A DNA stretch of 64,000 bases from Haliotis asinina. Its lineage: Eukaryota; Mollusca; Gastropoda; Lepetellida; Haliotidae. The notes beneath the pieces were generated by a model. That model saw nothing but the letters and a program-made list of their open reading frames with translations. It did not search any database and was not told where the DNA came from. Shown in pieces: positions 657 to 40,200 of this stretch. The stretch covers positions 4,829,501 to 4,893,500 of the forward strand of contig NC_090288.1 of the NCBI RefSeq assembly GCF_037392515.1. Direction: 5' to 3'. The position numbers and the translations under genes were made by a program. The first letter of the stretch is position 1, and each line of letters starts with the position of its first letter.

Positions 657-3600
657 ATTTGGACATGGATGTTTCCTTCACTGTCTAGAGAGTTTATATC
701 AGGTGAGGGAATATGTGTATTTATACCATTTAAGTGAATGTTTATGCCAGGTGAGTGAATGTTTATACCAGCTGAGTGAATGTTTATACCAGCTGAGTGA
801 ATGTTTATAACAGCTGAGTGAATACATGTATTTAAACCAGGCGAGTGAATGTTTATGCCAGGTGAGTGAATATTTATACCAGGTGAGTGAATGTTTATAC
901 CAGGAGAGTGAATATGTGTATTTATACCAGGTGAGTGAATGTTTATAATAGGTGAGTGAATGTTTATACCAAGCGAGTGAATGTTTATACCAGGTGAGTG
1001 AATGTTTATGCCAAGTGAGTGAATGTTTGTACCAAGTAAGGTAAAGTTTGGAGTGGTTGATGTTGATTTGGGTATAGTCTGCTTGGGCTAAACATGGGAT
1101 GGGTATAGTCCGCTTGGGCTGAAGATGGGATGGGTATTGTTTGCGTGGGCTAAAGATAGGATCGGCATAGCCCACTTGGGCTAAAGATGAGATGGGTATT
1201 GTCTGATTGGGCTGAAGATGGGATGGGTATAGTCTGCTTGGGCTGAAGATGGGATGGGTATTGTATGCTTGGACGAAAGATGGGATGGGTATTGACTGCT
1301 TGGGCTGAAGATGGGACGGGTATTGTCTGCTTGGGCGGAAGATGGGATGTGTATAGTCTGCTTGGGCTGAAGATGGGATGGGTATTGTTTGCTTGGGCTA
1401 AAGATGGGATGAGTATAGTCTGTTTGGGCTGAAGATTGGGTGGGTATTGTTTGCTTGGGCTAAAGATAGGATCGGCATGGTCCACTTGGGCTAAAGATGG
1501 GATGGTTATTGTCTGCTTGGGCTAAAGATGAGATGGGTATTGTCTGATTGGGCTGAAGATGGGATGGGTATAGTCTGCTTGGGCTGAAGATGGGATGGGT
1601 ATTGTATGCTTGGACGAAAGATGGGATGGGTATTGACTGCTTGGGCTGAAGATGGGACGGGTATTGTCTGCTTGGGCGGAAGATGGGATGTGTATAGTCT
1701 GCTTGGGCTGAAGATGGGATGGGTATTGTTTGCTTGGGCTAAAGATGGGATGAGTATAGTCTGTTTGGGCTGAAGATAGGGTGGGTATTGTTTGCTTGGG
1801 CTAAAGATAGGATCGGCATGGTCCACTTGGGCTAAAGATGGGATGGTTATTGTCTGCTTGGGCTAAAGATGAGATGGGTATTGTCTGATTGGGCTGAAGA
1901 TGGGATGGGTATAGTCTGCTTGGGCTGAAGATGGGATGGTTATTGTCTGCTTGGGCTGAAGATGGGATGGGTATTGTCTGCTTGGGCTGAAAATGAGATG
2001 GGTATTGTCTGTTTGGGCTGAAGATGGGATGGGTATTGTCTGCTTGGGCGGAAGATGGGATGGGTATTGTGTGCTGGAGCAATGAATGTGGACTGTTAGG
2101 GTATGACACCAGAAGGGGGTGAATCTTATAAACATGTTCAGCTGTATTTTCGCAATCTCAGACTGCAATAAAACTGGGTTTGAAATTGTAAGCGGTTACC
2201 ATGCTACGGTACGTATTGCGGTACAAAGTCTTCAGTTTGGTCTGTTTCAGTTCAGTATGTGAGATATGATAATAATGCAGAAAACTCACAACAAGATCTA
2301 AACCTTTCACTGTTTAATAAACTGAGAAATAATAACAATAATGTGTGTTATTTTGACTGAACAAAACTGTCATTTTTTGACTAGATGGGATAAGATACAA
2401 TAACCAAATTTTGGGATTGCATTACAATATACCGAACTGAAGGCAAAATACTACGTTTCTACCAATGCTGTGGTATACCGTTTCACCCCTAAACAAAACT
2501 TGGTAGGTTATGGCTGTGGAATGTGTTGAGCAGGTGTCACCTTGTCCCAACAGTCTACCAGCCATCAGGACTGATACATACAAACAACTGCATCATTGCA
2601 AAACATTGTTAGAACTGCAAATTTATGCTAACCATAAAAGTATTAAATACTTACGTTCTTGTGATGTAAGTATGACGACAAATATGTATTTAAACTTAAC
2701 CAACCAAATTAACATCACTCAAGCTTGGAAGTAATTTCAAGACAGCGTAATTATAATATTTGATGCATGAGAGAGCTAGTGTCTTATGAATATTTAATGT
2801 TGATGTTTAATAGCATACTTTATGTTTAATGAGCCTGCATAAGGTGACTCGGTCTAAGATTTTCTTGTCCTGGCTGAACGTTCATGCTTTGTTTGCTCTT
2901 ACGTCAGGACAACACAGCAGCTATCGTTGGTGCTGTTTCCTAAGTTGCCGTTCAATTTACAGTGCACAATTATGTTCCTTGGTTTGAATCCTCTTCTTTT
3001 ATGATTCCATGTTCATCAGCACCATACCTGTTTACCCAAGTGATACATGTCTGAAACCTGCTTTACTTCACGCTTTAGTGACTTCCTGTGGTGCAGCTGG
3101 AAAGCTGGACTACTGATACAAACAAAGAATGCGTGATGGTGTGGTAGCCTTACTCACTCACTCACTGCTAAAAAACTCACTCTCCAACCCATTCACACGC
3201 TCAATCACCAACCCACTCACTTGCCATCTCGCCAACCCACTCTCTCTCACCCTTTCTCTCATCCACACATTCATTACTTACTCATCAACACACACACTCA
3301 CTCACTCACTCACTCCTCAACATTCTACCACTACCACAGCATGTCATACATCAGAATGTGATGGGTATACATGTAGGTGATGGACACATATTGGATGATG
3401 TCCACGACTCCACACAAGTAGCAGTGTGTCACATGTCACAGCAATAAATCTCAAGCAGAACGATGCTTTTAATAAAAGCATATGCATATTTAATGTATCT
3501 TCACCAATTTATTCATATTTTGTCCCTATGATGGTGGTTTTGAATTTCTAGTTTCTAGTTTGTGTTATTAATGGATATTTATTTCACAAAGGCTGAAGCA

Positions 3601-6107
3601 AATTGGATTAAAAGACTAGCAGAAATCTTGATATCCTGTATTATTGAAGTTAGTTTAGCTTATTCACATAAGAATGAGTGCAGAAACAGTTTTGTAAATC
3701 CTCGGTTTGATAGATGCTTGTTTTCGTGTCATATGTATATTCAGTAGTCTTCATGTTTAATACGTCATATATGCCCTAAGAAACTGTATATATCTGTATC
3801 CAAGCAGATCCGTAAACACCACAGCGGAATCCCTGAAAATACCACATGAAGGATCTCCAAACAGAATTGAAAGATTCCTGTGTATATACATTCAGGATCA
3901 GTTACAAAAATAATTGATTGAATCCATGTGTGTACGTCAAGGATCTCCTGTAAATACATCAAGGATCTCTACATAGAGCAATCCTTGTGTTAACATGAAA
4001 GATCTCTTGTGTTTATATCAGGGATCTCTATTTAGAGCTCTGTAAACTCCTGTCTACATCTGACTTTATGTACATACATCAAGGATCCCTGCATAAAGAT
4101 CCCTTAACTCCTATATTCACAGCAAGAATGCCTACATACACATTGAAGGTCTCCAGTATAGACATTCACAGTCTCCCCTGTGTGTGTGAGCAAAGGATTT
4201 CCATATCCCCATGAGGATTCAAACCAAAGGGCTTTTATCTATAGATCCAAGAGAATCGCCCACATGCACACAAAGATCTTAAACTGAAAGAAGTGACATT
4301 GATCACTGCCATGGTACAAAGGAAAATCTGACCTCTCTGGTTTATCACTTGTTAAGGAAACAGTACCAGTAGATTATGCAATAGTCTGGAATCACTTGCA
4401 GTGTGTGTGTATGGAGATGTCAAGGAGTGATGTGGTATATGCTCACTGACATCAGATAAATCATTAGCCTGCCCTCCATGAGTGTTTCATGATGACTTGT
4501 TGCCAATGATTAATGGCTTCATATTATTCTTGTAATGAATTTTATTTTTCCAATTACAGAAAATCACAGGGCATGAGTTGAAATACACAGCTTTAGTTGG
4601 CAAGCCGAGTGAGATAACTTATCATCATGCCGACTACCTTCTCAGTCAGCAGTCCCGCCTGTTGGGGCTGGATGGAATCAGCACTATATACTGTATAGGG
4701 TAGGTCGACTTTACATCAAGCAGACATGCCAAAGCAAGTTGAATTCAACATTCTAGTTATTTCGACAATTGCTTTGCTATCACTATATTGGGGAAGTACG
4801 TGCGTGATCGGAGTGCACAAACGGTTTCATCGGTAGGATGGATGCCCAGTTCCTGTCGTGAAACATTTTATTGACAATTGAAATCTGGAAGTTAAGTTAT
4901 GTAAAGAGCAAATAAACATCAATATTTTTTACCCGAGATCATTAATACCACTTTAGATACAAAATCAATTTCCTGTATAACAAAAGATAGTGAGCGAAAT
5001 TCAGCAAGACCAGTCATCTGCTAGTGACAGTTTATGTATAAAACAAGAAGCCACATGATCAAAACACGCTCTTGTAGTGTGGCAGTAAAAGTATGGCTCA
5101 TCATTGAAAACAGAATGCAAAATACCCAGATGTGGCAAGCGGCTACAGTTTTGCTGATACGATGTCATCAACGCTATTTTTGTAGGAAACACATGTTATT
5201 TTTGTGTGAAATTGATGAATATATCTTTATCACTCAAGGTTAGCAAAATCAAAACTTTAAATGATTTAAAAAATAAAAATTATGTTTTTGTCTTACATCG
5301 TCGAAAACCCCTAATACTGGGATACTATATAGGGTAGGCTGACTTTACATAAGACCTATACTGTATAGGGTAAGTCGACTTTACAACAGACTGTATACAG
5401 TATTGGGTAGGTCAACTTTACATCAGACTGTGTAGTGTATGTTAATTTTACATGAGACTGTATACTATATAGGGTAGGTTAACTTTACATGAGAATGTAT
5501 ACTGTACAGGGTAGGTCAGTTTTATATGAGACCTAATACTGTATTGGGTAGGTCAACTTGTCATAAGGCTTTATACTGTATAGGGTAGGTCGACTTTACA
5601 TTGTATATGGGACAGCAGACAGCAGGTCAACTTTTCATATCAAACAAGCCAATTTAATCCATCCCTCTTTCTCACAGTGACAACCCAGAGACAGATATAT
5701 ATGGAGCAAATCTCTACAACCGCTACCTCAGAAAGAGACTCAAGTCTAAACAGAAGCGTCTGTCAGCCAAGGCCGTGGTCAAGCAGGCTGTTGCCCATGC
5801 CAGCGGCCAGCAGGTGTCAGACATGGATGACGACGATGATGACTCGTCTGAGGAGTTGGAGATGTTAGAATCACAGTCGGAGGGAGAAGAGTTTGTTGAT
5901 AATTTCGCCAAGTCGTGTGAAAGCATTCTGGTATGTACCGGTGTATACTGCTCCGAGAGAGACTTTGTGACCTACGGGGGCAAGCGGCCGTCAAATCATA
6001 ATCACAGAGATTTCGTAATAGACCCGGACCTCAAACGGCCGTGCCATGTCACGCAGAACGTACTAGAGGCAGTCCAATTGGTGTTTGAGAAAGAACAGTT
6101 CAATTGA
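657..6107 (+). CDS. HDHD5: HDHD5 (CECR5) HAD-like hydrolase, 3' three exons
   Basis: C-terminal part of haloacid dehalogenase-like hydrolase domain-containing 5. The exons are 657-702, 4560-4699 and 5678-6107 (stop 6105-6107); earlier exons lie left of the window. The exons read RFGHGCFLHCLESLYQ, then KITGHELKYTALVGKPS, then CIGDNPETDIYGANL, which follows the human protein (RFGHGTFLLCLETIYQ, KVTGKELRYEGLMGKPS, AVGDNPMSDVYGANL). The Lys of GKPS fits HAD motif III and the acidic GDNPETD fits motif IV. Further on ILVCTGVY, HRDF and the final NVLEAVQLVFEKE also match. All junctions are AG/GT and the phases join cleanly (Gly codon split gg|t). A lineage-specific acidic stretch (DMDDDDDDSSEE) replaces the Ser/Gln-rich linker of vertebrates. 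The family is a predicted phosphatase, often placed in mitochondria, with no settled substrate. The introns are 3857 and 978 bp, and both carry minisatellites derived from their own splice donors. Confidence 0.95.
703..1037. repeat. 21-bp minisatellite seeded by the HDHD5 splice donor
   Basis: About 15 units of roughly 21 bp (some 27 bp), consensus gtgagtgaatgtttatacca+g, beginning at the first base of the intron. The unit reproduces the exon end (GTTTATATCAG) joined to the donor (GTGAGG). Five units read CAG|GTGAGT exactly and one TAG|GTGAGT. Because 21 is a multiple of three, the reverse strand is open over 158 codons; that frame is an artefact of the repeat. Confidence 0.93.
1068..2076. 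repeat. 31-bp minisatellite with an 11-unit higher-order period
   Basis: Tandem 31-bp units built on 'gggctgaagatgggatgggt' followed by a variable 'attgtctgctt' type end. Blocks 1150-1485 and 1506-1826 are near-identical in unit order, offset by 341 bp (11 x 31), so an 11-unit block was duplicated after the units had diverged. It lies in the same HDHD5 intron as the 21-bp array. Reverse-strand open frames here are a by-product of the repeat. Confidence 0.93.
2077..4559. other. Rest of HDHD5 intron, no gene seen
   Basis: AT-rich intron sequence. Within it 3140-3330 is a degenerate ACTC/CACTC run, resembling an expanded SINE tail. About 3830-4170 is a very diverged tandem array built on 'catcaaggatctcctgta'. 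Nothing else is recognisable before the acceptor at 4559. Confidence 0.6.
4974..5325. repeat. Interspersed repeat R1, copy 1 (in HDHD5 intron)
   Basis: About 350 bp with a second copy at 59880-60347. Both run from 'tgtataacaaaa' to 'cccctaa(t/c)actgggata'. No terminal inverted repeats were found. On the reverse strand both copies share a related open frame starting MFPTK and containing CFDH-ASCFIH-LSLADD. The family is not recognised. It sits between the HDHD5 donor at 4700 and the donor-derived array at 5323. Confidence 0.75.
5323..5606. repeat. About 37-bp minisatellite seeded by the second HDHD5 splice donor
   Basis: Eight units, consensus tactgtatagg|gtaggtcgac followed by tttacat-agact. 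The unit copies the end of exon 4560-4699 plus its donor: the exon ends ..ctgtatagg and the intron starts gtaggtcgactttacat. Most units keep GG|GTAGGT, i.e. usable-looking donors. The array lies 70 bp before the next acceptor (5677). The authentic donor at 4700 is the unit's ancestor, now separated from the array by repeat R1. Confidence 0.92.
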
Positions 6108-7040
6108 TGATGGCTCGATTGATTAGGCAAGTTAGTCTGTTGGTTGTTCAAAGGTAGACCCAGCAACTGTAAGTAGTGGTCAGTTGGCTGGTGATTGACA
6201 GGGAAACATTGTGGAAGCTCAAATGATATATTATTCACAGGGGCAGATTGTTTTATCAGAATCAAGCAGAAGCTCAAATGTTGTATTATTCACAGAGACA
6301 AATTGTTTTATCAGAAACATATTTAGCCATGATAAACTCTCTATGTATTTTAGAGAGCTTCATCAAGCACTATCTAAAGACTTCCAGACCTCAAAGGCTC
6401 ATTTTTGCCTTCAGTAGCACATATCTCTGAAACTCAAGTGGTTATTATCCTAGCAGTCTTCCTCATTCACAAATGTATTTTAGGTATATGAAAACAAGTT
6501 ATTTTTATGTTGGGCCTAATATCTGAAAAAACCCAATTTGATTGCATTGTTTCATGAGAGACAGAAGAACGATAATCTTGTAGAAAGTCTCATGAATGAT
6601 ATTCCTTTTGAATCACCAGCCAGAAATTACTTGTGAAACATTTGTAGTCTGGATGCCGCTGTCCTCTCCGAATGTGTTTATATTAGTAAACATTGATATT
6701 AGTTCATCCTGATTGAGGAGTGATATACTTTGTATATATATATATAAAAGTGCCCAATGGTACTGGTGACTATCCTTAAATCAGGTGTCCAGTTTAACAG
6801 TGTCTGTATTAAGAAGGTTCCACTGTGCTCGGTGGGAAATTTGGTAGCTGTCTCTCATTGTCTCAAGACTTAGCTGATTATATAGAGGTGGCTGTGCTTC
6901 TGAGATCAGTTATTTTATCATATTTGGATCGCTGACCTCCAGTTTGGAGAGCAGGTTGGGTGTTTACCTTAAGAGCTGAACGTCAGTTAATTCTCTGCAG
7001 TGTCATACCAAATGCTGTTGAACAATGGAACTTGTTAACT
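6108..7040. other. HDHD5 3' UTR and flank
   Basis: Sequence after the HDHD5 stop. It contains a two-copy 56-bp tandem duplication at 6213-6324 (each copy with 'gaagctcaaatg' and 'ttttatcagaa') and a short (TA)n run near 6730. No further gene is recognised and I could not place a poly(A) signal with confidence. Confidence 0.5.
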
Positions 7041-7041
7041 G

Positions 7042-7672
7042 GCCACAAACACACAGGCTCTCACACCAACACACAGACACACAGGCTCTCATACAAGTTC
7101 TCACACAAACACACATAGACACACAGGCACTCACACAAATGCACATAGACACACAGGCACTCACACAAATGCACAGACACACAGGCTCTGACACAAACAC
7201 ACATAGACACACAGGCACTCACACAAACATACATAGACACACAGGCACTCATACAAACATACAGACACACAGGCTCTCATACAACTTCTCACTCAAACAC
7301 ACATAGACACACAGGCACTCACACATATGCACATAGACACACAGACACTTGCATAAACACACATACTCTCACACAAACACACATAGACACAGAGGCTCTC
7401 ACAGTCGCACACACAAACACACATAGACACACAGGCTGTGACACAAACACACAGAGACACACAGGCTCTCACACAAACACAGACACACATACTCTCACAC
7501 AAACACACAGGCTCTCACAGTCACACACACAAACACACATAGACACACAGGCTCTCACACAAACACACATATACACACAGGCCCTCACACAAACACACAT
7601 ATACACACAGGCCCTCACACAAACACACATAGACTCACAGACTCTCACACAAACACAGACACACAGGCTTTT
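7042..7672. repeat. CA-rich minisatellite
   Basis: About 630 bp of units near 28-32 bp built on 'cacacaaacacacatagaca' plus 'cacaggctct'. Open frames on both strands through it (Cys/Val-rich or Thr/His-rich) reflect the repeat and are not genes. Confidence 0.9.
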
Positions 7673-9655
7673 TTTATTTTATAGTTTAATATTTTTATAC
7701 ATGTATATTAATTAATATTTCAAATTTTCCGATGTTATGAGATTAAATAATTTTATGTCTTTGTTAGTAAAAATATTTGCCCCTCAGTGAACCAGATTTG
7801 TGAGATCAAAGGATGATCTCAGTGTCCCAAGTTCTGCTAATCTTGAGATAATGAGCCATCAGGTTAGAGGCCCTGATTAAGCTGAAGTGAAAATGAATCT
7901 CATGCTCCTCAACAACCCTGTGGAGATGATGTGTGTGATAGATGATATTAAAATATGTATTCACTTATACAAGTTGCCATGCTACATGAATATATTGTTT
8001 TGGGATTTGGTAAGGCTTGTTTCAGGAAAGATGCTCTTTCTTCAATTGCATTTTTTAATGCCACAAAATATTTGATTTTTTAAAATATTATTTTAAATTT
8101 TAAATGTATGTTTATATCAACTAATGAATAGCCTAGAGGTAGATAAGGCTAGATGTAGTCTAATGGTTAATCAAGAATTAAGTTGGCAATAACTGTTAGT
8201 TAGTTACAGCTTTCATGTTTTACAAAACAATGGTAACAATATTGAAGCGAAGGCATGTATGTTCTTGCAAAGATTCGTCATAATGATATGGTGACTTAAT
8301 GTAAGCTGAGTTGAGCATTTTTATAAATCCTTTTTCTCAAAATAATCCTCCAACATGGGTTTCATGTTTTACAGAATGATAATAACTTTTTGTGACTATT
8401 TCCTGTCTTAGCTGCCCAGAGAACTGCACCCTCTGTGTTTGTGTTTTGTATTGACCAAGTGACCCTGATTGAATAACTAAGGTTTTTTCAAAGGATAGAT
8501 ATTTTTTTAGATATTATTAATTTAATTGGACCATGCCTTTTAAACTTAGGTTTGATGTGAACACAGTTTTCAAAAAGACATTGAACAGGCAAACCATTTG
8601 TGTGATTTCATATTCTTTCTTGAAATTTAATAATTTTAAAATGAAATTCAAGATGTGAGATATATTGTTTACAACTTGCCTTTACAGATGTAATAAACAC
8701 CTCAAAATGAACTGCAAAAAATGTTCTCCACAAAAATGTATTTTCTTGAAATTTAAAATTAGTATTTTAAAATTTCAACTTTGTTACTTGAAATTTCAAG
8801 GTATTTATAAAATGCACATGACCCCATAATGCCTCAATCACAGAATCTGTGGAATATCCTTACATACTCGAGTATTACTGTATAATGTCTTGATTTAGAA
8901 TGGCTCTGGCTCTACCAATTTGAGTAACGCGTCCTTTGGTTGTTCCTGTGTCTAATATTTGTTCATGAGATATTGTTTTAGAGAGGCTTAGGGTGTATTC
9001 CATTTTTTCGTACAGTCCCCAGAGTGTACATACTGTAATCAAGATGAGGTAGTGGTGGGGAGGGAAGGTAAAGGTTGTTCTCATACTACTAGGATGAAGA
9101 CATTTGTTAGATATTCTGTTAATTTGCAGAATGTATTGTTGACTGGTAAACAGATTTCTGTGCCTTTTGACCTATATCATAACTTACTGATTTTATCTTG
9201 TATTGTGACACATTTCACTTAATATTACAAACACATTTTAGCGCTGAATAGATTTAATGTCAAGACCCTCTTCTGAAAAACAAGTTTTAAGACAATGTTA
9301 AAGTGTTTGAGTTACCATCACCTTAGCACTATTCTCCCTTTGTGGAGGGAGACCTTGGCTGTCATCCAGATTGAGTTATAATGTGAAATAGTGAAATTAC
9401 TATTCTTCAGTATTTGACAAAGTAATATGCAGAGCTGGAATGTTTGGGAGGATTATATGTATGGTGTATTCCTTTCATCAAAGAAAGCAACTTTGGGAAC
9501 AATAAAATATTTGAGCAGGATATTTAATATTGAGGCAGGGATAAAAAACAATAATTGAGTTGCTCACATGACAAAATACATTGTGTCAACAAATGGTCCA
9601 AATCTGGAGACCAACACCAACACTAATTATCATTTTAAGCTTTTAGTAAATTACC
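7673..9655. other. AT-rich stretch, no gene seen
   Basis: No exon, repeat family or RNA gene recognised. A 69-codon reverse-strand frame at 8875-9084 includes the protein-like run TGTTKGRVTQIGRARAI, but I cannot tie it to a family and there is no splice or repeat support. Confidence 0.4.
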
Positions 9656-9930: not shown

Positions 9931-9989
9931 CAGGAATGGTGATATGTTTTCAAACATTATTGGTTGAAATGTCTTGTCAAACGAGCACA

Positions 9990-12597: not shown

Positions 12598-13553
12598 AGT
12601 AAAAAGGAGGTTTTACCATAATAACTGTGAGGCGAGTGTAGTAACAGTATCCAAATTGAGCTTTTACTGTAATGACTGTGAGGTTACTTTAGTAACAGTA
12701 TCCAGACTGAGGAGGTTTTACTGTAATGACTGAGAGGCTACTGTAGAGACACTATCCAGATTGAGGAGGTTTTACTGTAATGACTGAGAGGTTACAGGAG
12801 AGACAGTGTCCAGATTGAGGAGGTTTTACTGTAATGACTGAGAGGCTAAAGGAGTGACAGTATCCAGACTGAGGAGGTTTTACTACAGTGGCTGAGAGGT
12901 TACTGCAGAGACAGTATCCAGATTGAGGAGGTTTTACTGTAATGACTGAGAGGCTACTGGAGTGACAGTATCCAGATTGAGGAGGTTTTACTGTAATGAC
13001 TGAGAGGCTACTGGAGTGACAGTATCCAGATTGAGGAGGTTTTACTGTAATGACTGAGAGGCTAATTGAGTGACAGTGTCCAGATTGAGGAGGTTTTACT
13101 ACAGTGGCTGAGAGGTTACTGCAGAGACAGTATCCAGATTGAGGAGGTTTTACTATAGTGACTGAGAGGCTTATGGAGTGACGGTATCAAGATTGAGGAG
13201 GTTTTACTGTAATGACTGAGAGGCTAATGGAGTGACAGTATCCAGATTGAGGAGGTTTTACTACAGTGACTGAGAAGTTACGGCAGAGACAGTATCCAGA
13301 TTGAGGAGGTTTTACTACAGTGACTGAGAAGTTACTGCAGAGACAGTATCCAGACTGAGGAGGTTTTACTACAGTGACTGAGAGGTTACTGCAGAGACAG
13401 TATCCAGATTGAGGAGGTTTTACTACAGTGACTGAGAAGTTACTGCAGAGAGAGTATCCAGATTGAGGAGGTTTTACTATAGTGACTGCGAAGTTACTGC
13501 AGAGAGAGTATCCAGATTGAGGAGGTTTTACTGTAATGACTGAGAGGCTATGT
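12598..13553. repeat. 54-bp minisatellite
   Basis: About 17 units of 54 bp, e.g. 'gaggaggttttactgtaatg' then 'actgagaggctactggagtg' then 'acagtatccagatt'. Two subtypes alternate (taatgactgagaggcta and cagtgactgagaagtta). The length is 18 codons, so the reverse strand stays open for 124 codons (VVKPPQSGYCLCSNFSVT repeated); with no start context or homology this is not called a gene. No splice donor is visible in the unit. Confidence 0.92.
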
Positions 13554-15092: not shown

Positions 15093-15100
15093 AAATTAAA

Positions 15101-16996: not shown

Positions 16997-19900
16997 CACC
17001 TCCCGATTCCGTATTGTCGGAATCACGTGAGATGTGAGCATGCGCTGAATCATCAGTTGTGCGTGCATTGTTTCAACAGTCAACATACTTATACATTAAT
17101 TGGAACTAATTATCGAAGTTTTAGACGACAGGAGTCGTCATTGACATCAACAGGTTGGTTCTTACACCGAGTTCGGAGAGACGTACGAAACTTTTTCCCT
17201 GGATTTCTAATTGTGTAGAAAATTCAAGACAATCTCTCTCTGACCAAAACGACCACTGGTCGTGGTTTGCCAAAATGGCGATGCCAGTCCCGGGGGGCAA
17301 AAGCCCAGAGGGGCACACACGCTCAACAGAGCGAAGTGACAGTGCTTTCCAACTTTTTGAAGACCTCACTGAGGTATCAAATGCCATACAACCCGGTACA
17401 TCCTCAATGAGGGAAAACACAAGTTCACAAGAACTTTGCCAGTCAGAGGACATGGAGACGAGAAGGGGTGGGGGGAGCAGTAATGACACAGACACCCCGC
17501 TTGACGAGACCTCGCTGAAAGCCATTCTCCAGGGTCAGACTCGGGCTATGCTGAGCATCAGCCAGGCACTAGCTTAAATTAGCAACAGGCCGGAAAACAC
17601 CGAGGCCGAACGAACCCAGCCGAGCGGGTCCGAATGCAACCAAGATGGCGGCGCCCATAGCGAAACTGGTGAGTCGGACGATGATATGATAGATACATTG
17701 GTGAATCACTGCATCGACCAGGGAGTTAACCGTGCCACTATCAGTGATGCAGCGGAGGAGGAGGCAGGCGATACTAGCAATCTGCAGGCCTTATTGGCAG
17801 ATATTGTTGATTTTTTGGGGGAAGAGGAAGCAACGGGACCAGCCATTACAGAAACACTGGCGACCTCAATAACCCAGGGCCTATCAAAACCTCCCAACAT
17901 GGACAAACTAAAAGAAATCATGGACAAATACAAACGGCCACAAAATCTCCCCTATCTGGTATCACCTCAAGTTAATGAGGTTATCTGGTCTGAGAGCAAA
18001 AACTTCACACGATCTCATGACCTGAAAATGCAGCAAACACAGAAAATGATGGCCAAAGCCATTATACCGGTCGTTGAAATGACTGACACATTGATGCAGG
18101 CTGTGCTCCACAAACAACAAATCAACGTTGTTGAGTTGCTAAAGACGACAAAACACACTCTCAGACTGTTAATCGGAATCCAATCTGACCTGAATACTAA
18201 GAGGAGAGAAAACTTCAAGCCAGACCTGCAGTGACCCTACAAAAGGCTGTGCAACAGCGACATCAACGTCACCACCAACCTTTTTGGTGACGATCTCTCC
18301 AAACATGTCAAGGACATAAATGACACCAAGGAGCTCAGTACCAAACTACACTGGAAGGAACTGAACAAGGGGAGCCCCGTGGGGAAAAGTGTGGGTCCTG
18401 CACAGAGATTCTCAGGGTCAAGGTTCAAGCCATACAACTCGGGTCCAGCCAGGAAGGTGTACACACAGCAGAGAGGCAAAGGGTACTCTGCAGGGGGTAG
18501 GCCTCAAAACAACCATGGGAGCAGACAGCGGCCTTTTTTAGGGCAACGCCAACTGGGGCCAAGGTCATCCCAGAAACCTCAATGAGTGAAAACACCCAAA
18601 CCCCACAGGTTGGTGAAAATACTATGCTCCCCCCAGTAGTTGTAAATACACCTGAAAATTTCTCTGCGGGGAAGATAAGCAATTTTGTACCCTTGCAACA
18701 TAATGCTCCTCCCCCTTTAAGACTGCAAACAAGTGAAATAATACTCATGGATGCGGAGATTGAGCGAATGTTACAAAAAGGCATTATTAGAACATGTGAA
18801 CATTCTCCGGGAGAATTTTTATCAAATGTTTTTTGTAAGGTGAAAAAAGACAAATCACTAAGAATCATCCTAAACCTTAAATGGTTAAATGACCATGTAG
18901 ATTCCTCCCACTTTAAGATGGACACTTTTAAAACAGTTTTGTACCTGATTCAGAAAGACTGCTTTTTTGCCTCGGTCGATCTCAAAGACGCTTATTATTC
19001 TGTCCCCATTAGAGCTAGTGACAGAAAATATTTAAGATTTCTTTGGGGTGGAACTTCATATGAATTTACTTGTCTACCCAATGGCCTGTCATCGGCCCCA
19101 AGGCTATATACTAAGATAATGAAGCCAGTTTTCTCCTCTTTACGAAAACAAGGGTTAGCAAATACAGCTTATATTGACGACTCATTATAAGTAGGACAAA
19201 ACGAGAAATTGTGTTCAGAGAATGTGGAGGCTACAGTAAAAACGCTTGATAGCCTTGGCTTCACGCTTCACCCTATGAAATCTGTTTTAAAACCAACTCA
19301 ATCCATTACATACTTGGGTTTTGTCATAGACAGTACCTCCATGACAGTTACTTTAACTGATGAAAAGATCTCCACAATGAAAAATATGTGTAGAGACATG
19401 ATTAAAAGAAGATCAATATCCATTAGAGACATGGCAATTCTCATAGGGAAAATGAATGCCAGCTCCATGGATGTGGAATACGCACCTCTGCATTTCAAAC
19501 ACCTAGAGATTGCGAAAAATGAAGCCCTTAAGCAAGCAAAAGGCAACTATGATGGGCCATTAACACTAGATAAACAATGTGTATCTGACCTTCACTGGTG
19601 GATAGACAATGTGGACAAATACCCAGTTTCTCTTGAACGAGCTCAGCCAACCATCGTAGTGAAATCTGACGCCTCTAAATCAGGATGGGGGGGAAGTATG
19701 TGGAGAGACAAGTGCGGGGGGGGCAGTGGAACAGTGCAGAGAGCAATATGCATATCAACTGTTTAGAACTCGAGGCTGCAGGCCGTGTACTGAAATCCCT
19801 CTGTGCTCAACTTCGCAACATGCGTATCAGACTTCTATTGGATCATACTACAGCAGCAGCATATATTAACCATATGGGTGGTACTAAGCTAGATTGCAAC

Positions 19901-22970: not shown

Positions 22971-23271
22971 GCCGGTATGCTGAAGATTAAACTTGGATCT
23001 TCAGGAATTAGGATAAGGCAAGTTTGGCAAAGAGGTTTGAAGACATGACCTGCATGAAAGTAGATCAGGTAGACTCAGTTATCATAAGAAGTGTTCGAGA
23101 TAAGACAGCTTACGAAATGAACCCTAGATGTAGTACATTTCACCTAGATCTACATATATTTCATTTTGTAGGTCAGTAAAAATATTCTGTATCTATTTGG
23201 TCATTTTGTTATCTAAGATTTCCACAAAGAATGAACCTTGATTAATCCAGAGCAGGAATGATCTAATTACT

Positions 23272-26728: not shown

Positions 26729-26744
26729 ATGTCAAGCTGATGCT

Positions 26745-27064: not shown

Positions 27065-27212
27065 ATCAAGAGTGATTGACACATAGAGACTTAGACTCAA
27101 TTCCCAACATCGGTACCCTGTGTGAGGCCCATTTCGGGTGTCCCGAGACGATATTGCTGGATTGTAGCTAAAAGCAGCATGAAACTAAAGGTTGCTTACT
27201 CACTCATATGGT
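27065..27212 (+). mobile_element. SINE family B fragment
   Basis: From 'gactcaattcccaacatcgg' (B-box region) to 'agcagcatgaaactaaa' and an ACTC tail ('ttactcactca'). The tRNA-like A-box end is missing. Confidence 0.7.
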
Positions 27213-28232: not shown

Positions 28233-31200
28233 TCACACACCCAGCATCTTCCGCACACCCTCCTCCTCCTCCAGGAGACTCTCACTTGCATATTTCTTCA
28301 ACAACTCCATCTTTTTCCGCATCACCAGCGCCTCCTCAATCTGAAACACACAGTTAAATCAATCAGTAAAACCATCCAAACCCAATCAGTCAAATCCATC
28401 CCAATCAATCAAATCCAACCCAATCAATCAATCAATCAACCAATCAAACATTCTGTTACAAATTCCTTCATAGGTTCAGCAAGGAAACAACCAAAGATGG
28501 TTGCAGGCATGTGCACCCCACTCTTTTGTCCTTAAAGTCCTGAAATGACCAATGAAAGTCTCACAAAAAGGGGTGAAAATGAGGTGTGTACCTCCCATTT
28601 CTGAAGAGTGTGCAACTCCTTTGTATCCACTCCTGACAACACTTTGACTCACATTCAAATATACAGAACTGCACAATGCTTAAACTGCAAATTTGTGAGT
28701 ATGAATGAGTTTCATTTAAGCTGTTCTGGATAGTTTTCCAGTCATAGAAAGTGTACATGTTTAAAATTTTGACAACTTACTAATACATGCATGGATCTGA
28801 CAAGTCAAGAAACAATCAGAGTTAATCTGTAATTGAAACCAACAATCACAAGATTCTGAGAAGATAAAGGGATGCAACTCTGTCTTGACAAATGGGCATC
28901 CCTTGCCTGTGAATCAGTCTTAGGAATACCTGCAGTCAAATATCTATTCCACATACCAGAAAGAGAGCTTCTCCTTTTCAAAGATTTGAGAGAAGGGAGA
29001 GGGAGAGTGAATATGGCTTTGTGTTGCTTTCAGCAATATTTCAGCAAATTCACACTGGCCCAACTACTCCTGATTTGAAGTAAGAGCCTGAAGAAATAAC
29101 GCTTCAAACAAAGGGTGATAATCAGCTGACCTCCTTTTGTGATGGCACCGGTACGTGGGCAATAAAGTGCTCAGCAGTTTCTTCAGTTTTCTGGGTTTCC
29201 GTGATTTCCTCTTCAATCTGAATAAACAAATGTATAAATAAAGTCACCACAAAGCATGCAGGATTTGTAAATTTCTGGCTACCTGAGCTTCTTGTAATAA
29301 CCAAGTTTTATCACAAGTTTCAAGTGGACTCTGACAGATATTAGTCTGTTGTTATGGTGTTTGCTTACTTGTTGCTTAACGTCACACTCAGCAATATTTA
29401 TATATATATTTCAGCAATATGACAGTGGTTTGTAAATAACCCAGCCTGGACTGGACAGTCCAGTTCTCAACAGCACTGCTACTATGTGAACATGTGGAAC
29501 ATTAACTTGTAGATTGTCTTTATGATTATCTGACATCATTCTATCCTTACCTCCTCCGGCAGGTAGATTTCCTCCTCAGTTTCCATGGTGTCCTCCTCTG
29601 TGACCTCCCCACGACTGATCTTCTCCTGTTGCTCCTTCCAATCTCGGACTTTCTTGGCAATTGCTGTCACCAGGAACAAAAACAACAACCCTGTATTTAC
29701 TGAGGACAACACGTATAACAATAGACGTCCTGTATTCCTGAAGACATCTGTACACAGGGCAAGTCATTTATTGACCTTCAGCGCATCTGGGACAATCGTT
29801 CATGTGTCATAACATTCATGATCGATTATCCAATGTTTAGTGAGTCTACTGTACATGTGTCTACTACACACACGAAACAAAACACACACACACTACCATG
29901 AAAATGTAGACACAATGCCATAGAAAGTGGTCAAATGTAACACTTTTATATTTGGAATAACAATTTCTCTGTAAAGTACACAGTACTAGTGCTTTTGTTG
30001 GGTTGAGTTCCATAAGGGATTCAAATCTCAGTTCTCAGAGTCTGGCACCTAATCGACAGCACACCTGACCAGCCACTGTGACTTCCATGAAACCAATGTT
30101 GGACAACTGGCAGCCAAGACCAAAATGCTTTACCATGAAAACACAGTAACTCCCTGGATCTCGAACTCCTTAATCTCAAATCTTCTACAATATACACAGC
30201 TCGAACATAATCTCCTGTCTCAACCTCTTCTTACATATTTATCATTACATTCGTATTTATATCTCAAACTTCAAGACACACATACACATGATATCTCGAA
30301 CCTGAAAATTAGCCTTTAATCATATAATTTTTGTATTTTAATCTCGAACTGTGCTTACCATAACATTTCGCATATGTTCTATACGTTGTCAACAAACAAA
30401 AACTACATGGCAAACTGAGTTCATTCTGTCACTGCCAGTTTGTTTTGAGGCTATGAGACGTGAGCAGTTAACCAGCATCATCTGCCGCGCATGGGTACAT
30501 AAAAATGACGGACCACTAAGCATACGGATTAGCTAAACTGACAATTTGTTGACAATCATCTTTGAGTCTATAAAAGTGGTCAGTCATTTTCTTACATCAT
30601 GTCGAGTGTTGACAAGGGACTTTTCCGTACATGAATTATTCCATTTTTTGTATGACACTCACTGTCATGTGATCAATATGGCTGCTGAAGTGATGTACGC
30701 TGATGTGCTTTTTATCCATTTTTTTAGAATATAGTCTGCATATACACATAATTATGTAATTTTCTGAATAAAATTGATATTTTATCCTTATCCTGTCTCA
30801 TGCTTAACTGCTTATCTCCTCTTCGTGGCAAAGGTAGTGGAACACCTGAAATCGCTTGATGTTCCCTTCTAAAAGAAGCAGATGTAAAATTCACACTCAC
30901 CCACGTATTACCTCCCCTCCCAGCACATGGTCAGCTGATCGACCATGATACATTAGTCTCTCCTATAATCACCCGACACGAGGAAACGAAAATTCAGCGT
31001 GTCTGTGAGGGGCAGCTGGAAGGGCTTTCGCCAGGAGTCAGGATAAGTATAAAATATCAGTTTTATTCAGAAAATTACATATTTTTCCTGATCCTGACTC
31101 ATGCTTAATTGCTTACAGAATCCGACGGAAACGGCGGTGAGTCAGGCCACACTGGATTCTGCTATCAGTTCCAAATTATGTCCAATAATTTCCCACCTAA

Positions 31201-34200
31201 CGGGAACTTGTAACAGCGATAATTCGGTCCTATTCTTCTCATATTCATTGTAGATTTTGGGGGGAATCACATCCAGTCAAACTTGTCTTAGAAGGCTTTG
31301 TTGACTGCCTCATGATGACATCAAAAGTAACTAACATCCTGCTAGTTTCTGATGCAACTAAATGTCAAGATATAGCAATCGAGAATAGTTGCGACCCCTC
31401 TTCGTGTACAAGTATCTTCATTACGAGTATATGGTCATCACTCATGCTAGTCTGTTTAAGACGTGTGCATAGACTTTCCACCAAAATACTCCGCAGAGTG
31501 TCTGGCTTCCACAAGTCAGGTGATAAATCGGGCGAGTTAAGTCAGTGTCGTCGGGGAACTGTTACTGAGAAACGACAAGTGGTCCAAACTGATGAATGCT
31601 AGAGACGTCCTCTGTGGCTATGTCTCATGGATAACGGTTGGTAAACACCGTGTTTGACTTCCAAAAGCAGCCCTCCATTTTAGTTCATAGTGAGCAATTC
31701 CCATGTAGCGCTAGTGTAGAGGCCAAGGCTCTGACTTATTGTGGGTTAGAGGCTCACGGTGGATCCAATCCTGCTGCTTCATATGCTCTAAGTGTAACAG
31801 TTCTAATCCACACTGAGATAGTGTTGCAGGATACTTCCGTGAGTGTCTCAGTAGATATAGGGATAAACAGGCGCTGAACCATTGTCTTCTAGACTTGGTA
31901 CATGCAATGTATATTTTCAATGCTCTGACTGGACATCATATCATGAGGTCCTAAGATTGAAGACAAGGCCGGTATATGGAACTGTCTATCCGGTTAACCT
32001 GGTAGTTGATTCTTTGCTATGAAATCCCATCTTAGACCTAAATGAGCTGTTTCTTGGTGACTTGTGGTGATTTCTGACATTCTTGCAGATATAGCCAGGG
32101 CAAGTAAAAATAATGTCTTTTGAGTCAACATTTCAATTGAAGTACAATATTTAGGTCCCACGCTGGAGCTCTAAATCTGTGTTGTTGATCTTCCAACTTG
32201 AACAAACGTAGTAAGGCAAGAGCTCAAGGGTCCCTGTTCCCATGGTGACGACTGAGCTGAGAGCTGCTAAGTATGTAGATAACATAGAACCTTTCAGACC
32301 CTTAGAATGACGTAAATAGCATAAATAATCTGCTACTGAGGATGAGTCACCTTGTTCGCTGAAAATCCCTTTTTTCTGGCATATGTCTAAAACGTTTCCA
32401 CTTGTTGTCATAAAGTGTGCGATTTTAGGCTGAGGTGACTGTTTTCGCTGCTCTTGCCGAATATCCTCTGTGTATCAAACAAGTCTTAATACGGCCCACA
32501 CATGAAGATGAAATACCGATGGTTGGCCATGCATTTGCTTAGTGTTGGGATGAATGAGAAGATTCTTCCACTCTGGTAACTGTAGAGTTAGTTGTCCTAG
32601 TTCTTCTTTAAGTGTTGGAAACCAACCTCTCGTTGGCCAGTAGGGCGCGACCAAAATCAGCTGTAACCTCTTTGTTTGTCTGATTTCCTCCATGACTTTT
32701 GGTAACAGTACTGGAGGGGGACACGCGTACGCGTTTAGTCCTTCCCATGGAATGCTGAGAGCGTCCATTGCCCAGGCAAGGGATCTGGTACTGGGGACAC
32801 AAAGGTTGTTGTCTGTTTGTTGAATCTTGCTGCAAATAGGTCTATTTGCGGTGATCCGAAAGCTTGACCGATTAGTTGAAAGGCTTCCCGATGCAGCATC
32901 CATTCTGTTGGAGATGGACGAAGAGGACAAGATAGGGCATTTGCAGGCTCCTGGTATGTGACATGCTTTAGCTTAAAGACTGTTGACTAAGTTGAACAGT
33001 TGAAACGTTAGGTGTAGTAGAGATAGTGATCTCGTTGACCCTTGTTTGTTTACGTGAAAAGGTAATGCTGGCCGTTGAAAAGGTTTAGATTCTCAAGTCA
33101 TTCGAGCCGAGTTAGTAGCCTGATAGTGAAGTCCAATTGTAGCTCCCATGATGAGCTTGTATGCCATCATTTTTCGTCTTCAGATCATCAACCAAGGAAG
33201 TCTATTTATAGCTGACTGGCTGTCCGATCAGAAACTGCCATTCATTGCTGTAATCCTCCTGATAGGCAACGTCGAGTCTGCTGTAGAAAATCTCTACGCC
33301 GTCTAAACAATCAAATGACACTGGAAAAATGACATCACATATAATAACAGGGCGTTTTCTCTCAAGGACCTATCGAAATGTAGATGTAACGTCACTTGCT
33401 TTCTTTACAGGCCTTTGTCTCTCGGGGACCAATCAGATTGTAGACGTGACGTCATTGGTGTAGCAGATAACTGTTCATCATGAAACATTGCTGAAACGGT
33501 GATACCCTTGCTAGCATTTTGGATTCTCTGTAACCATGCTGTTTGGCTAACACGTGTCTAGATGAGTAAAGCGCGCAAAAAATAATTCCACTGCTTGGAG
33601 CTGATGTAGACAAATTGTCTTCCAGGTAGATGTGTCAGAATTTTTCCACTGAAGATAATACCATCATCTCTTGTGATCGGAGATGTAGTTTGCAGTGGTA
33701 TGTTGCAGTCATCTCGAAGAATCTTCGGTACGTATTCATCATTGACTTTATTGTTTTTTTCATTTTACATCAAGTTATCATGTATTCTTTTGGGTTGTTT
33801 GGTTGTCCTGAAAAGGACCTTTGACAGCAAGTGTTGGTTTAGCTTGCATCCATCTGCTTGAGCACTGTTGTCAAGGTGTTGATAGACTTGATCATCATGA
33901 CTTCTCTAACGTCTTGACCAGTCATCCTTGTTACCTCTTCAATCTTGTCGAGGGAGTAGATTCAGTCAAGCAGTAGTTGAGACGTGGGCCCGTCCGAATG
34001 TCGTCTATCTTGAAAGATCGTTGCGGGGAGTGCTCATGATCTTGTTGTTGAAACTTGGATGCTGACTTGATGCTGACTAGATAACTTCTCAGAAATCATA
34101 GAAATCGGAGCTATCGCCAGAAACGTTAACGCATGTCTTCCTTCTTCATCCTATAAGTGTGGGGTTGGTTGGAATCCTTGGATAATGAGACTAAGTCCAG

Positions 34201-37200
34201 ACCATTCATGATCCACGATGTGACTTCTGAGCCCGAAAATAGGGCTTCCTCCAGTGACAAATCACGATGTTGTCTAACTTCGTGCTTCCTAGAGTAAGAC
34301 AAATTCATAGATCTCCGACAAACCTGACTGTGTGAGTATAAATCTGAAGGGGAGGGTGACTGCATATGACGTCTTCTATGAATAGAGGAGACTGAAGGAT
34401 ACCTTTTCCGTTGACGAGTCAATCCGCGACTACTCGTGCGAGTGCACTCACTCAGAGTGGGTATATCCTTCTCTGTGCTGTGACCCGATGATCGAGACCT
34501 GGATCTTCTGGAGTGTGTGTGCGTGCGTGCGTGCGTGCGTGCATGCGTGCGTGCGTGCGTGCGTGCATGCGTGCATGTGTACATGTGTGCACCTCCTTTA
34601 CATCCTCAGACGTGAGTGCAGGTCTAGGTGAATGCTCTCGCTGAATCGCAGTCGACATCGTTGACGAGTGCAGTCGTCTTTCCTCTTCCAATCGTCGCTC
34701 CATAATTGTGTTGTGAATTGTTGCATGCAAGCGTCTGTGTCGAATGCATGCGGTGCGTGCATTGACGACTGTGTTGAAGAGTTGTCTACGATGCCCGAGA
34801 TTGCAGTCGACAGTCCTGATGTCCTCACTCCTCATCATCAACAGAGACATCATCAAAAATTGACGTTCTTCCAAGGGAACTATCTCCTCCTCAAATGATT
34901 TCTTCATCAACAAGGGATGATTCTGTGATTATCTTACAGATGAAGACTTCGACTTTGAAGACTTATTTTTCTTGGCCTGTGACGGCCCTGCCTCAATAGA
35001 TGGTCTCTTCTGAGTCTTGGGATGGGACTCACCGGACCCTGGACACAATCTCGGGGAGCATCTCGCTGGAATGAACCTCAGCATCAATAATTAAATGGTT
35101 ACCCGATTTTATTTCACTAGATTACACATGGCTAATGTGAGCCAACGTTGCTTATCTCTTGCACTGAAAACATGATTTCATCACCTGAGACTAAGTCTCA
35201 GCTGATGAAATATGTGTTAGAAAAAGGCACAATAATCACAAGTTTATGTAATGATAATAAACACATACAAGCCAAAAACTGCATACAACACAAATTTAGT
35301 TATAAAAACCAAAAGAATGAAAAACTTTTATCGCCGTATACAGGACCACAGGTGCCTCCAGCCGCCCTCGTCAGGCGATAGGGAGAGAGTGAAGTATCAT
35401 GGCCGATCAGCTGACCATGAGCTGGGAAGGGAGGTAATACATGGGTGAGTGTGAATTTTACGTCCGCTTCTTCTAGAAGGGAACTTCAAGGGATTTCAGG
35501 CGTTCCACTACCTTTGCCACGAAGAGGAGATAAGCAATTAAGCATGAGTCAGGATAAGGAAAATTATGCTTTTAATTATGTAACTTGTGAATGGTGATCA
35601 TGATGATTACTGTGAAACAAATAAAAGAACAAAATTAGAGATTTTTTGTTTGTATGTTGTAGTAATCAACTTCAATATCGATGTATATGTAGTCCTATGT
35701 ACACAATGTGCACATATAAAAACTGAATGTATTTCAGTCTCGAATCACACAATATCTTGAACCTTGGTGCCTTGGGGTTCGAGATCCAGAGATTTTACTG
35801 TAGTATGAAGATTGCTTACCGAATAGTGTAAAATTTAGTCAGGGGAGTTTAAAGAAGCAGAGTATTAGATACAACAAATATGTTCAGTTATCAGACCCAG
35901 ATGGTCTTTGAATGAATGACATACAGATTGCTGGAGCTGTCAGTTTGCAGAAGAGATGTCTCCTACAGCAAGAGTAGCCACTGTGATATATACCTTGCTT
36001 TTCTACTTCCTGTTCCTGGGGGATAAGTATCCCATCATCCTCATCTCGGTAACCATAGTAATCAGCATCAATGTCCTTCATTAACTCTGCTCTGGTCTTC
36101 CGAGGCTGGGGCGGAGCTGGAATTACAAAGGTTGTATGATCATGCAATTTGTTTCAACTTCTACAACTTTGCTTAAATCTTTCACAAGCATCAAGTGACA
36201 GAATACAACTATTTCTGCATGGCACTCGGACAAAAGTAATAAAACAAGCACTGCTTGACTCCAAATACAGTGTTTCACCCATAGAGTGCTTCATCTAGCA
36301 ACAAGCTCTATGCTAAATAAGTGTATAACATTGCAGAATGTGCTGGTGACTCATGACTGGGTACAACTCTCTCTCATTGGAGACTTCCACTGAACATCCT
36401 TTGTACCATGAATATAGAAAATATCTTACGTTCTTGTTCAAACAATTCTCGAACACCTGGTAGATCCTTGGCTGCTCCAAAATATCTGAAAGAATATCCA
36501 CGTGAGTTTTATAGTCTAAAAGTTGTAGCATACATTAATACATCCATCTTACAATCAAGGACCATCTCCATAACATACAGTCCTCCGTCTTTCATTCATC
36601 CACACATAAAGGTCTACCATAAATCAAGAGAGTTTGCAATGGATCAGTTGTGTTCCAGGAAGACGAGGGGCTACTAGTATGAGCAATAATTCATCCCTTA
36701 CAATACACATTTCAGCTGGCCTTTATGACAAGCATGAGAAACCTTTTTACTTCAAAAGTCATGACAATAGTATGGATCTATCCACATAAGAATGTTTAAA
36801 GTTTTACTTTAATGAGTCTGATGTAAGTCAATGAAGACATGGCATGATGACTTTCCTGTAGCGAAGACTTTGAAAAAAGGACATCAAAGACAAAGGGGAG
36901 TTCTTCGAAGACATTCTTCAGCAGTATTACCTAATTTGAATAATGTTCACGGACATTGGGATGTACTAGAAAACAAGATTGCCTGAAACTCTATGTTACA
37001 ACAGTAATCTGCTTTGCAGATACAATCTGTTTTACATTGCAGCTCATCATTTACTCCAATATACAAACTCCCTCACTCTGAGGCTGGAGCCCTAGCTACT
37101 CACTTGTACCCTCTGTTTCCTGGCACTTCCTTCCCATCATGGTCCAGCATCTTTGGCCCAATTCTCTGAAAGAAAATCATCTCGATCAAAAAATAAAAAG

Positions 37201-40200
37201 TTTTGTTGAGAACCTTGTAACCTGGTCCCCCATCCCCAGTGTGTGCACCTTGTAGTCTGGTCCTCTACCAGTGTGTGTACCTTGTAATCTGGTCCCACCC
37301 CTAGTGTGTACCTTGTAGTCTTGTCCCCAATCCCAATGTATGTACCTTGTGCGCACCCCCAGCATGTGTACCTTGTAGTCTGGTCCTCTACCAGTGTGAG
37401 TACCTTGTAATCTGGTCCCCCACCTGTGGTGTATGTACCTTGTAGTCTGGTCCCCAATCCCATTGTATGTACCTTGTGCGCATCCCCAGCATGTGTACCT
37501 TGTAATCTGGTCCTCTACCCACAGTGTGTACCTTGTAATCTGGTCCTCTAACCAGTGTGTACCTTGTAATCTGGTCTCCAACCCCCAGTGTGTACACCTT
37601 GTAATCTGGTCCCCGTCCTCCAGTGTATCAAACTTGTAATCTGGTCTCCCTCTCCCAGCATGTACATTCAGATCTGGTCCCTGACCCCTAGTGTGTGTAC
37701 CCTGTAATCTGGTCCTCCACTCCCTGTGTGTACTATTCAATCTGGTCTGGTCCCCCTACGCTGGTGTGTGTACCTTGTACTTTGGTCCCCCACACCCCCA
37801 GTGTGTGTACCTTGTCTGGTAACTCTACCCTGGTATGTGTACCTTGTAGTTTGGTCCCCTACACCCCCAGTGTGTGCACCTTGTCTGGTAACCCTACCCC
37901 GGTGTGTGTACCTTGTAGTCTGGTCCCCCCAGCTCCTTGATGCGGTCCTCCCAGTGACCCTTCTCCCGCAGCAGCTTGTTGATCTCATCATTCAAATCTC
38001 GCAGCTTGAACTCACCCAGACCAGCTGGAAAAAAAAGACATCATCAAGTTATTATCAATTAATGGCATTTTTCCCTGTTTTTGTACTGTGCCATGTGACA
38101 TTTGTCATCAAATAAATTTGATCTTACTAAACTGTTATGGCTAGTTTCCAGTTATTGCCGCATACCAGTTATTGCCAACACCTGACAGTAGCACTTGTGA
38201 AGACAGCTTGATATTAACTCTTGTAGTCTATTGTTTTCATCATGTGTCAACGTATGAAATACTATTGATGTGCAAGTCCATCTTCCTTCTCAAGCGCTAC
38301 AGCCAGGTGTTGGCCAGTATCTTATACAAATGATAACTAACAGAAACAACATCAACATTAGAGAGAGAAAGGTGTGAAGCCACCTTGAGCTCATACAGGG
38401 ATCCACCACAAAGTGCCAAGTATTGGTGTAATATGGGTTTATGTAGTCTTGGAGACTGTCAAGATCATAACAATGGTAGTCTAAAACAGTTAAAGCCCAA
38501 TTCACTGCTCTTGTCTGAAGTCCATAAAAGGTCTATTATGTTTACTTAACTCAGCTTATGAGAATTGCTAAGATTAATGTTTAGTGCCAAGTGTGTGATT
38601 ACTGGCTCAGAGATATTTGCATAGACTGAGTGAGTGGGTGAGTTTAGTTTTACGCCGCACTCAGCAATATTCCAGCTATATGGCAGCAGTCTGTAAATGA
38701 GTCTGGATCAGATAATCCAGTGATCAACAACATGAACATCGATCAGCACAACTGGGAACTGATGACATGTGTCAACCTAGTCAGTCACCATCTGATCCTG
38801 TTATTTGATTCTTACGACAAGCATAGTTGCCTTTTATGGCAAGCTGCATAGACTGCGGTGACATGTACAAAGTTATGCAATCAGCAGAAGCCTTAATTCT
38901 CTGTACACTGGTGATTCCCCAAATATCCTGCAACCTACACCTGTCTGTGTACTACTTTTACCATTCTATAATCTTCTTGGTATTTTCATTATTTTGCTCA
39001 ACTGTCACCGGAAAAACACATTTAAACACTAAGCCAGATTCCATTCCAGATGTACATGAGTAATTAGTGCAGTATGGATACGACAATCCAGTGATGGATA
39101 GGAGCTTATTTGAGTGTTGGGTATGATGATATGCAATTAATATCAATCTTGCTCAGTATGGAACAAATCTCAACTACTCACTCATTCATTCTTCCACTTA
39201 CCATTTTGGATCTGGGCCACCTTCCTTGATATCTCTCCAATGATCTGCCGGCGCCATTTCTCAGCTTTACTTACATCCTCACAGTCAGAAGCCAAATAAG
39301 GACGTCTTTCCTGACCAAAAAAAGATGTATATATGCATCTTTTGTAATCTCTGCCTCATGTCATTATGAGCAGGCCAGTTTGTCCATTTGTTAACAAACC
39401 ACTCAGCAATATTTCAGCTATATGATGGTGGTCTCCCAATGATTCGCTCATACCTTTTGAACTTTTACCTCGGAAAGGTTTGTACCCAAATGATTTCTTT
39501 ATACCATTTTCTATATGAGCACTACAGGGTAATGCACATGAGGCACGCTACAATACTGTCAACAGTGAGTAAATAGTTGCTGAAAATAGCGTTTTTGTTG
39601 ATTCAAGGATGTCAGCTTGGGGAAATATTAGCTAATGGTAACCAAATGATAAGAAAGCCCTAAGCATAAATACTGCAGGTCAAATACCTGTGTTTTATGC
39701 GGATTTTTGTTTATTGAGGGATCAGTGTTAGTGACTAAAGAATTTTTTAAGTCCCATCAAATCCTAAACAGTACACATTGTCTGATTGGTTGAATCCGTC
39801 ATAGGTCACTCAAAGGTGACCTGACGCAACCTCCACTAGGTTTTGTTAGACTCAGTAGAGGAGTGTAACCAAAAGTACTGAGACTATGTTTATTTAGACT
39901 GGCAACAATTCCAATTGCTGAGGTATTGATTAGACCATTTACCAACTGCAAAGTATGTCTGATTTAATGTGAAACATACAGTTGATATGTGGTATCCTAT
40001 TTCATTTACACCTGTGTTGTTAACATCAATCTCAGCACCAGTCCAGCTATTTAGTGCAGCAGGGGTTAATTTTTTCTTAAAAATGGACATGTGCCACAGG
40101 GAAAGACTTTGAGAAAGTAAGCTGTCTTGACCAATTTTCCACAAGTTTATTGGCAGTTTGAAACTATCCACTAGCCCATGGACAAGTATGATACTCCATT

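Follow-up and report, generated by a model that had tools for sequence, protein, structure and literature searches.

A 64,000-nucleotide (nt) window of the Haliotis asinina genome (contig NC_090288.1, forward-strand positions 4,829,501 to 4,893,500; the window is the whole stretch analyzed, and coordinates below count from its first base) contains three minisatellite arrays that repeat the splice donor junction of the intron in which they lie, two in HDHD5 and one in ISY1. We modelled four genes here, HDHD5 (plus strand), ISY1 (minus), IMP4 (plus), and BORCS6 (minus). Three of them were located with tblastn, using human ISY1, IMP4, and HDHD5 proteins as queries, and splice sites were placed by hand; 21 introns have both ends inside the window. 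The translated spliced models contain no internal stops. Identity is 100% between the ISY1 model and the H. asinina "pre-mRNA-splicing factor ISY1 homolog isoform X2" (P0121), and likewise between the 205-residue HDHD5 piece and H. asinina HDHD5 (P0241); the ISY1 proteins of H. rubra, H. rufescens, and H. cracherodii reach 96-99%. In the public H. asinina proteins, the exon-proximal donor is the one used at all three junctions; the first, exon-abutting copy is the canonical donor. The exons and repeats concerned are:

655 to 702, plus strand: HDHD5 exon ending in FGHGCFLHCLESLYQ, with the donor after 702; its last 11 nt or so seed array 1 (tblastn, splice model, 100% identity to H. asinina P0241).
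691 to 1035, plus strand: array 1, the junction copy and 15 more of approximately TTTATACCAG/GTGAGTGAATG (the slash marks the junction), with the last junction-equivalent base at 1035 (Tandem Repeats Finder (TRF), copy list, alignment).
4560 to 4699, plus strand: HDHD5 exon encoding KITGHEL...IYCIG, with the donor after 4699 (tblastn, splice model, protein identity).
4683 to 4718, plus strand: junction copy matching array 2, 17 nt of exon and 19 nt of intron (blastn, best piece 33 nt, 97%, E 3.6e-10).
4971 to 5321, plus strand: dispersed repeat in the gap between that copy and array 2, with a second copy at 59877-60339 (self-blastn 82% and 80%, alignment).
5322 to 5601, plus strand: array 2, eight copies of approximately ATACTGTATAGG/GTAGGTCAACTTTACATGAGACTGT (TRF, copy list, alignment).
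5678 to 6107, plus strand: last HDHD5 exon, its acceptor outside array 2 (tblastn, splice model).
37104 to 37165, minus strand: next ISY1 exon, its acceptor outside array 3 (splice model).
37212 to 37930, minus strand: array 3, the junction copy and 21 more of approximately GGGGACCAGATTACAAG/GTACACACACTGGGG (TRF, copy list, alignment, blastn).
37912 to 38024, minus strand: ISY1 exon ending in LGEFKLRDLNDEINKLLREKGHWEDRIKELGGPDYK, with the donor at 37912/37911 (tblastn, splice model, 100% identity to H. asinina P0121).

Donors and acceptors were examined alike, each junction being taken as 30 nt (15 exonic and 15 intronic) and compared with its own intron for ungapped matches of at least 21 of 30 positions. 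Three of the 21 donors are repeated in their own intron: HDHD5 702 (12 matches), HDHD5 4699 (7), and ISY1 37912 (16). No match reaches this threshold at any of the 18 further donors or the 21 acceptors. The best ungapped match reaches 25, 29, and 28 of 30 positions for the three donors, compared with 15 to 18 at the remaining donors and 13 to 17 at the acceptors. A gapped comparison against shuffled sequence gave z scores of 9.3, 18.1, and 11.9 for the three donors and no more than 2.7 at each of the remaining junctions, and no acceptor matches its own intron above noise. Junction tests and copy lists thus agree with the original prediction, which had described three arrays in the introns of two unrelated genes, in the same strand sense, with copies that join exon end to intron start and never include an acceptor.

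Array 1 consists of 16 copies including the junction at donor 702, spaced 21 or 27 nt apart. Nine copies including the junction at donor 4699 make up array 2; those in the array lie at 5333-5584 and follow one another at intervals of 30-37 nt, mostly of 37 nt. Array 3 has 22 copies including the junction at donor 37912 and runs down to 37214 in steps of 26-40 nt, occupying most of the 746-nt ISY1 intron. Arrays 1 and 3 are contiguous with their exons, whereas array 2 is set off by 603 nt. The exonic share of the unit is about 11 nt in array 1, about 17 nt in array 2, and about 18-19 nt in array 3, a range slightly above the 11-15 nt of the original prediction. In donor-spanning variable number tandem repeats (VNTRs), the tandem units measure roughly 12-40 nt and carry the donor GT of the preceding exon, an arrangement that the three arrays share. 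Two further observations concern the host introns. About 34 nt after the end of array 1, the same HDHD5 intron carries an unrelated G-rich array of 31-nt units (1069-2075, 32 copies), inside which a longer duplicated block is visible by eye. The product of ISY1, the gene that hosts array 3 (37212-37930), is itself a splicing factor.

The arrays are genuine and have clear limits; they derive from donor junctions, and each arose separately, since their units are unrelated in sequence: none of the 21 unit pairs among seven arrays, compared on both strands, exceeded z = 2.5. The window holds no further copies of the three donor arrays at E 0.01. The primary sequences are therefore as unrelated as first described, and a single dispersed or transposed satellite family is rejected because the arrays share no unit sequence. 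As a source for the arrays, no RNA families or tRNAs were found in the window with Rfam gathering scores and ARAGORN.

Copying most likely ran from exon to array, rather than the reverse, since the exonic part of the unit is conserved, old coding sequence. In HDHD5, GDNP following [YF]x[IVM] is present in 31 of 31 relatives. In ISY1, 111 of the 120 relatives listed (of 2064) have GPDY followed, two or three residues on, by K or R.

Array 2 stands apart from its donor. Between the junction copy and the array lie 603 nt (4719-5321), at least 351 nt of which are the dispersed repeat, and the likeness of the two copies of this repeat stops within a few bases of the start of array 2. The simplest reading is that array 2 once adjoined the donor and was later split from it by insertion. 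For the initial ~250 nt of the gap (4720-4970) the window holds no second copy, which makes that insertion likely and not proven. The second copy of the dispersed repeat (59877-60339) lies just upstream of the first modelled BORCS6 exon.

We propose that these arrays began as chance tandem duplications across a donor, which were tolerated since the first copy preserves splicing; we put the probability of this reading at roughly two in three. Each array would have started as an ordinary short tandem duplication straddling the exon-intron donor junction and would then have extended into the intron through slippage or unequal exchange. Such duplications would persist because the exon-abutting donor leaves the mature mRNA unchanged, whereas arrays within exons or over acceptors would change the message and hence be lost. 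Array 2 would afterwards have been parted from its donor by the dispersed repeat insertion, to which the second copy of that repeat lends support. In favour of this reading are the repetition of the junction at three of 21 donors and at no acceptor, the age of the exonic part, the choice of the exon-proximal donor in the public proteins, the premature stops met from nearly all later donors tested, the absence of any special retention of GT in array 1, and the dispersed repeat next to array 2. The extra donors are probably used little, and their products may mostly be cleared by nonsense-mediated decay, by analogy with human ABCA7 (discussed below). Short repeats can be seen by eye at the unit ends; these are indistinguishable from the tandem repeat itself, and we make no claim of a founding microhomology.

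Whether donors attract such arrays beyond chance depends on how the events are counted. TRF returned 37 rows in the window, and merging those that overlap gave nine arrays with 20-60 nt units; this count omits four- to eight-base rows and low-scoring rows at 173-215, 8745-8799, 23123-23163, 28357-28448, and 63669-63708. Under uniform founding over the introns, the probability of three or more among the six intronic arrays straddling a donor, with 8 nt to either side of it, is 7.7e-5. It becomes 1.8e-4 with 5 nt on each side, 2.3e-3 with array 2 dropped (two of five), 2.1e-5 over the whole window (three of nine), and 9.0e-5 if 28357-28448 is counted as a seventh intronic array. These array-level values were framed after the data had been seen, and the array list involved judgement. 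Counted per site, at least three downstream matches occur at 228 of 3418 sampled intronic positions (6.7%) and at least one at 382 (11.2%), against which three of 21 donors are no significant excess (P 0.16 and 0.42, respectively) and zero of 21 acceptors no significant lack (P 0.24). The check proposed with the original prediction, enrichment at donors only, thus yields no significant excess over intronic positions in the window's 21 introns, and the specificity for donors over acceptors that it anticipated amounts to 3 against 0, with a one-sided P of 0.125. Since sites within one array are not independent, we give the array count more weight than the site count, although it cannot carry the claim alone. 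The two ways of counting disagree, and the evidence for a donor excess is mixed. The asymmetry between donors and acceptors is also what a simple filter predicts, because a donor duplication spares the first donor and the exon, while an array in the exon or over the acceptor alters the message.

A mutational process aimed at donors, in which co-transcriptional structures (for example, R-loops on a sense strand rich in G) or pauses in replication at donor motifs raise the rate of tandem duplication, is unlikely in our judgement. The array-level probabilities for three unrelated donor-seeded arrays in 64 kb speak for it, as do parallels in three human genes and a sense-strand GC skew that is positive in all three arrays (0.45, 0.26, and 0.22). 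However, the nearby 31-nt array, which has no donor, is more strongly skewed (0.60), and one gene hosts two of the three arrays; the post hoc framing of the array test and the non-significant per-site and acceptor comparisons tell against such a process as well.

Less likely again is simple coincidence, in which three of the many minisatellites at this locus happen to include a donor. The nine arrays in the window make this conceivable, as does the per-site result: 224 of the 228 positions with at least three matches lie inside arrays, compared with four of 3046 positions outside them. For array 3, which fills most of a short intron, random placement of the finished array in its own intron reaches the donor with P 0.19. 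The corresponding value for array 1 is 0.004, however, and the low probabilities under uniform founding, whether from six intronic arrays or from nine in the window, speak against coincidence.

We rank lower still the possibility that selection retains the arrays as spare donors or as a regulated switch for unproductive splicing. The donor GT is kept in all nine copies of array 2 and in 21 of 22 copies of array 3, where agreement in the GT columns (1.00 and 0.98) is above that of the other columns (0.83/0.81 and 0.79/0.76). Array 1, however, has kept the GT in 9 of its 16 copies and lost it in seven, and agreement in its GT columns (0.77) falls below that of the exonic (0.91) and intronic (0.87) columns; non-splice columns are also about equally conserved. 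Across the arrays, column agreement gives no consistent signal for selection on the extra donors. When donors are scored by a simple energy of pairing to the 5' end of U1, later copies equal or exceed the true donor in 5 of 15 cases in array 1, 6 of 8 in array 2, and 13 of 21 in array 3, and the rest are weaker. In array 1 the five better copies pair at -11.9 kcal/mol against -11.6 kcal/mol for the true donor, a trivial difference, and the other ten are weaker. All tested later donors except one lead to premature stops, as a decay switch would need. The exception, donor 750 in the intron of array 1, keeps the reading frame open with a 16-residue in-frame insertion, and the seven other later GT donors there lead to a premature stop. 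In the intron of array 2, a stop directly past the junction affects all seven later donors tested (of eight later copies); in ISY1, all seven tested (of 21 later copies) run into a stop at the sixth intronic codon. Certain extra donors could be usable, and most of the resulting transcripts would be expected to decay. The "isoform X2" name of the H. asinina ISY1 record suggests that there is an X1, and no ISY1 isoform X1 is among the 120 matches listed of 2064.

Intron gain by AGGT duplication, for which one could cite the AGGT in the units of arrays 1 and 3 and the exon sequence in all three, is rejected as scarcely credible, as that model requires the acceptor to come from duplicated units and the arrays exclude acceptors.

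Chance duplication across the donor, followed by tolerance, remains our preferred explanation, and a number of our own results weigh against it. Founding by chance with loss elsewhere may fall short of accounting for a probability as low as 7.7e-5. The high GT agreement in arrays 2 and 3 is also what donor maintenance would predict. For the proposed direction from exon to array, a looser LYQK pattern is found in 18 of the 31 HDHD5 relatives, and the ISY1 junction residues vary, with ELGGPDY in 81 and GPDYK in 22 of the 120 relatives listed (of 2064).

Arrays of this form have counterparts in human genes. The repeat unit of IFI6 (6-16) is short, at 12 nt, and its sequence is close to the donor consensus. 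The units of this minisatellite are reported to act as alternative splice donors (PMC4526556, citing Turri 1995), and donor-bearing repeat units are what IFI6 has in common with the abalone arrays. Intron 18 of human ABCA7 carries a 25-bp VNTR that flanks exon 18 and whose first GT is the canonical donor; one unit can be retained through use of the next donor, giving a minor frameshifted isoform (~2%), and skipping of exon 19 rises with the length of the array, which is highly polymorphic and disease-associated (PMC5954066). The abalone cases are alike in that the first GT is the canonical donor and, for arrays 1 and 3, in that the array directly flanks the exon, although the ABCA7 unit, as described there, begins at the GT, whereas abalone units include 11-19 nt of exon. 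The 31-bp VNTR of human CBS, c.1444_1467+7(16_21), comprises 24 exonic and 7 intronic nt in 16-21 copies at the exon 13/intron 13 boundary (PMC2630376). The same boundary is given in PMC5188458, which calls the VNTR non-coding although the c. numbering places 24 nt in coding sequence. The CBS unit thus spans the donor as the abalone units do, but is mostly exonic.

Two other kinds of junction duplication differ more. In Rogers-type intron gain, as summarized in PMC4974935 (Hellsten; potato RdRp; fission yeast 24-bp repeats), a tandemly duplicated stretch of exon that carries AGGT makes a new intron including its acceptor, whereas the abalone introns are enlarged and their acceptors untouched. 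CBS 844_845ins68 is an exon-intron junction duplication hidden by splicing (PMC2630376); unlike the abalone cases, it is not an array, and it lies by position on the acceptor side, although the text of that paper speaks of "splice donor sites".

The abalone arrays are best classed as minisatellites that straddle a junction, a kind already known that apparently has no name. The original prediction had treated the arrangement as belonging to no named class; human ABCA7, CBS, and IFI6 display the same architecture, and neither a name nor a survey for donor-spanning arrays appeared in the full-text literature searched (mostly narrow queries, with subscription papers mostly missing). Human genes have yielded donor-spanning arrays as single cases, and the one in ABCA7 markedly affects splicing and disease risk. 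What is striking here is the presence of three independent cases in 64 kb of an invertebrate genome, which suggests that the arrangement recurs and is countable. In well-annotated genomes, a comparison of donors with acceptors and random sites could accordingly tell mutational preference from survivorship. A stronger proposal would be that splice donors, and not acceptors, are preferred birthplaces of minisatellites throughout abalone genomes and a source of intron growth and minor isoforms, with human ABCA7, CBS, and IFI6 as further members; on present evidence we regard this as doubtful.

Other repeats in the window stand in varying relation to splice sites. A fourth array near a donor lies in a BORCS6 intron (54652-54784, 43-nt units, 3.1 copies, 98% alike); it starts ~23 nt past the donor at 54807 and excludes the junction. 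The gene itself, probably BORCS6, has a Pfam match of 29.8 bits, under the family cut-off of 35. In an IMP4 intron, a 35-nt array (47167-47277, 3.2 copies, 96% alike) sits nearer the 3' end, and the donor of this intron has no match to it. The last ISY1 intron holds a short, CAAT-rich tandem repeat (28357-28448) that ends ~16 nt before the acceptor and excludes it. Around a 54-nt array at 12605-13550 (17.6 copies, 88% alike) no gene is assigned.

The window also contains mobile elements. A retroelement at 17121-21381 encodes a reverse transcriptase domain and has a match to an integrase N-terminal-like domain that falls slightly short of the Pfam cut-off; a shorter piece resembling it lies at 32151-32972 (minus strand), with no Pfam match in the part tested. 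Both may be DIRS-like. Finally, a dispersed repeat at 143-413 ends in a run of the tetranucleotide CTCA, recurs in pieces on both strands at some nine or more further places in the window, and appears to resemble a short interspersed nuclear element.

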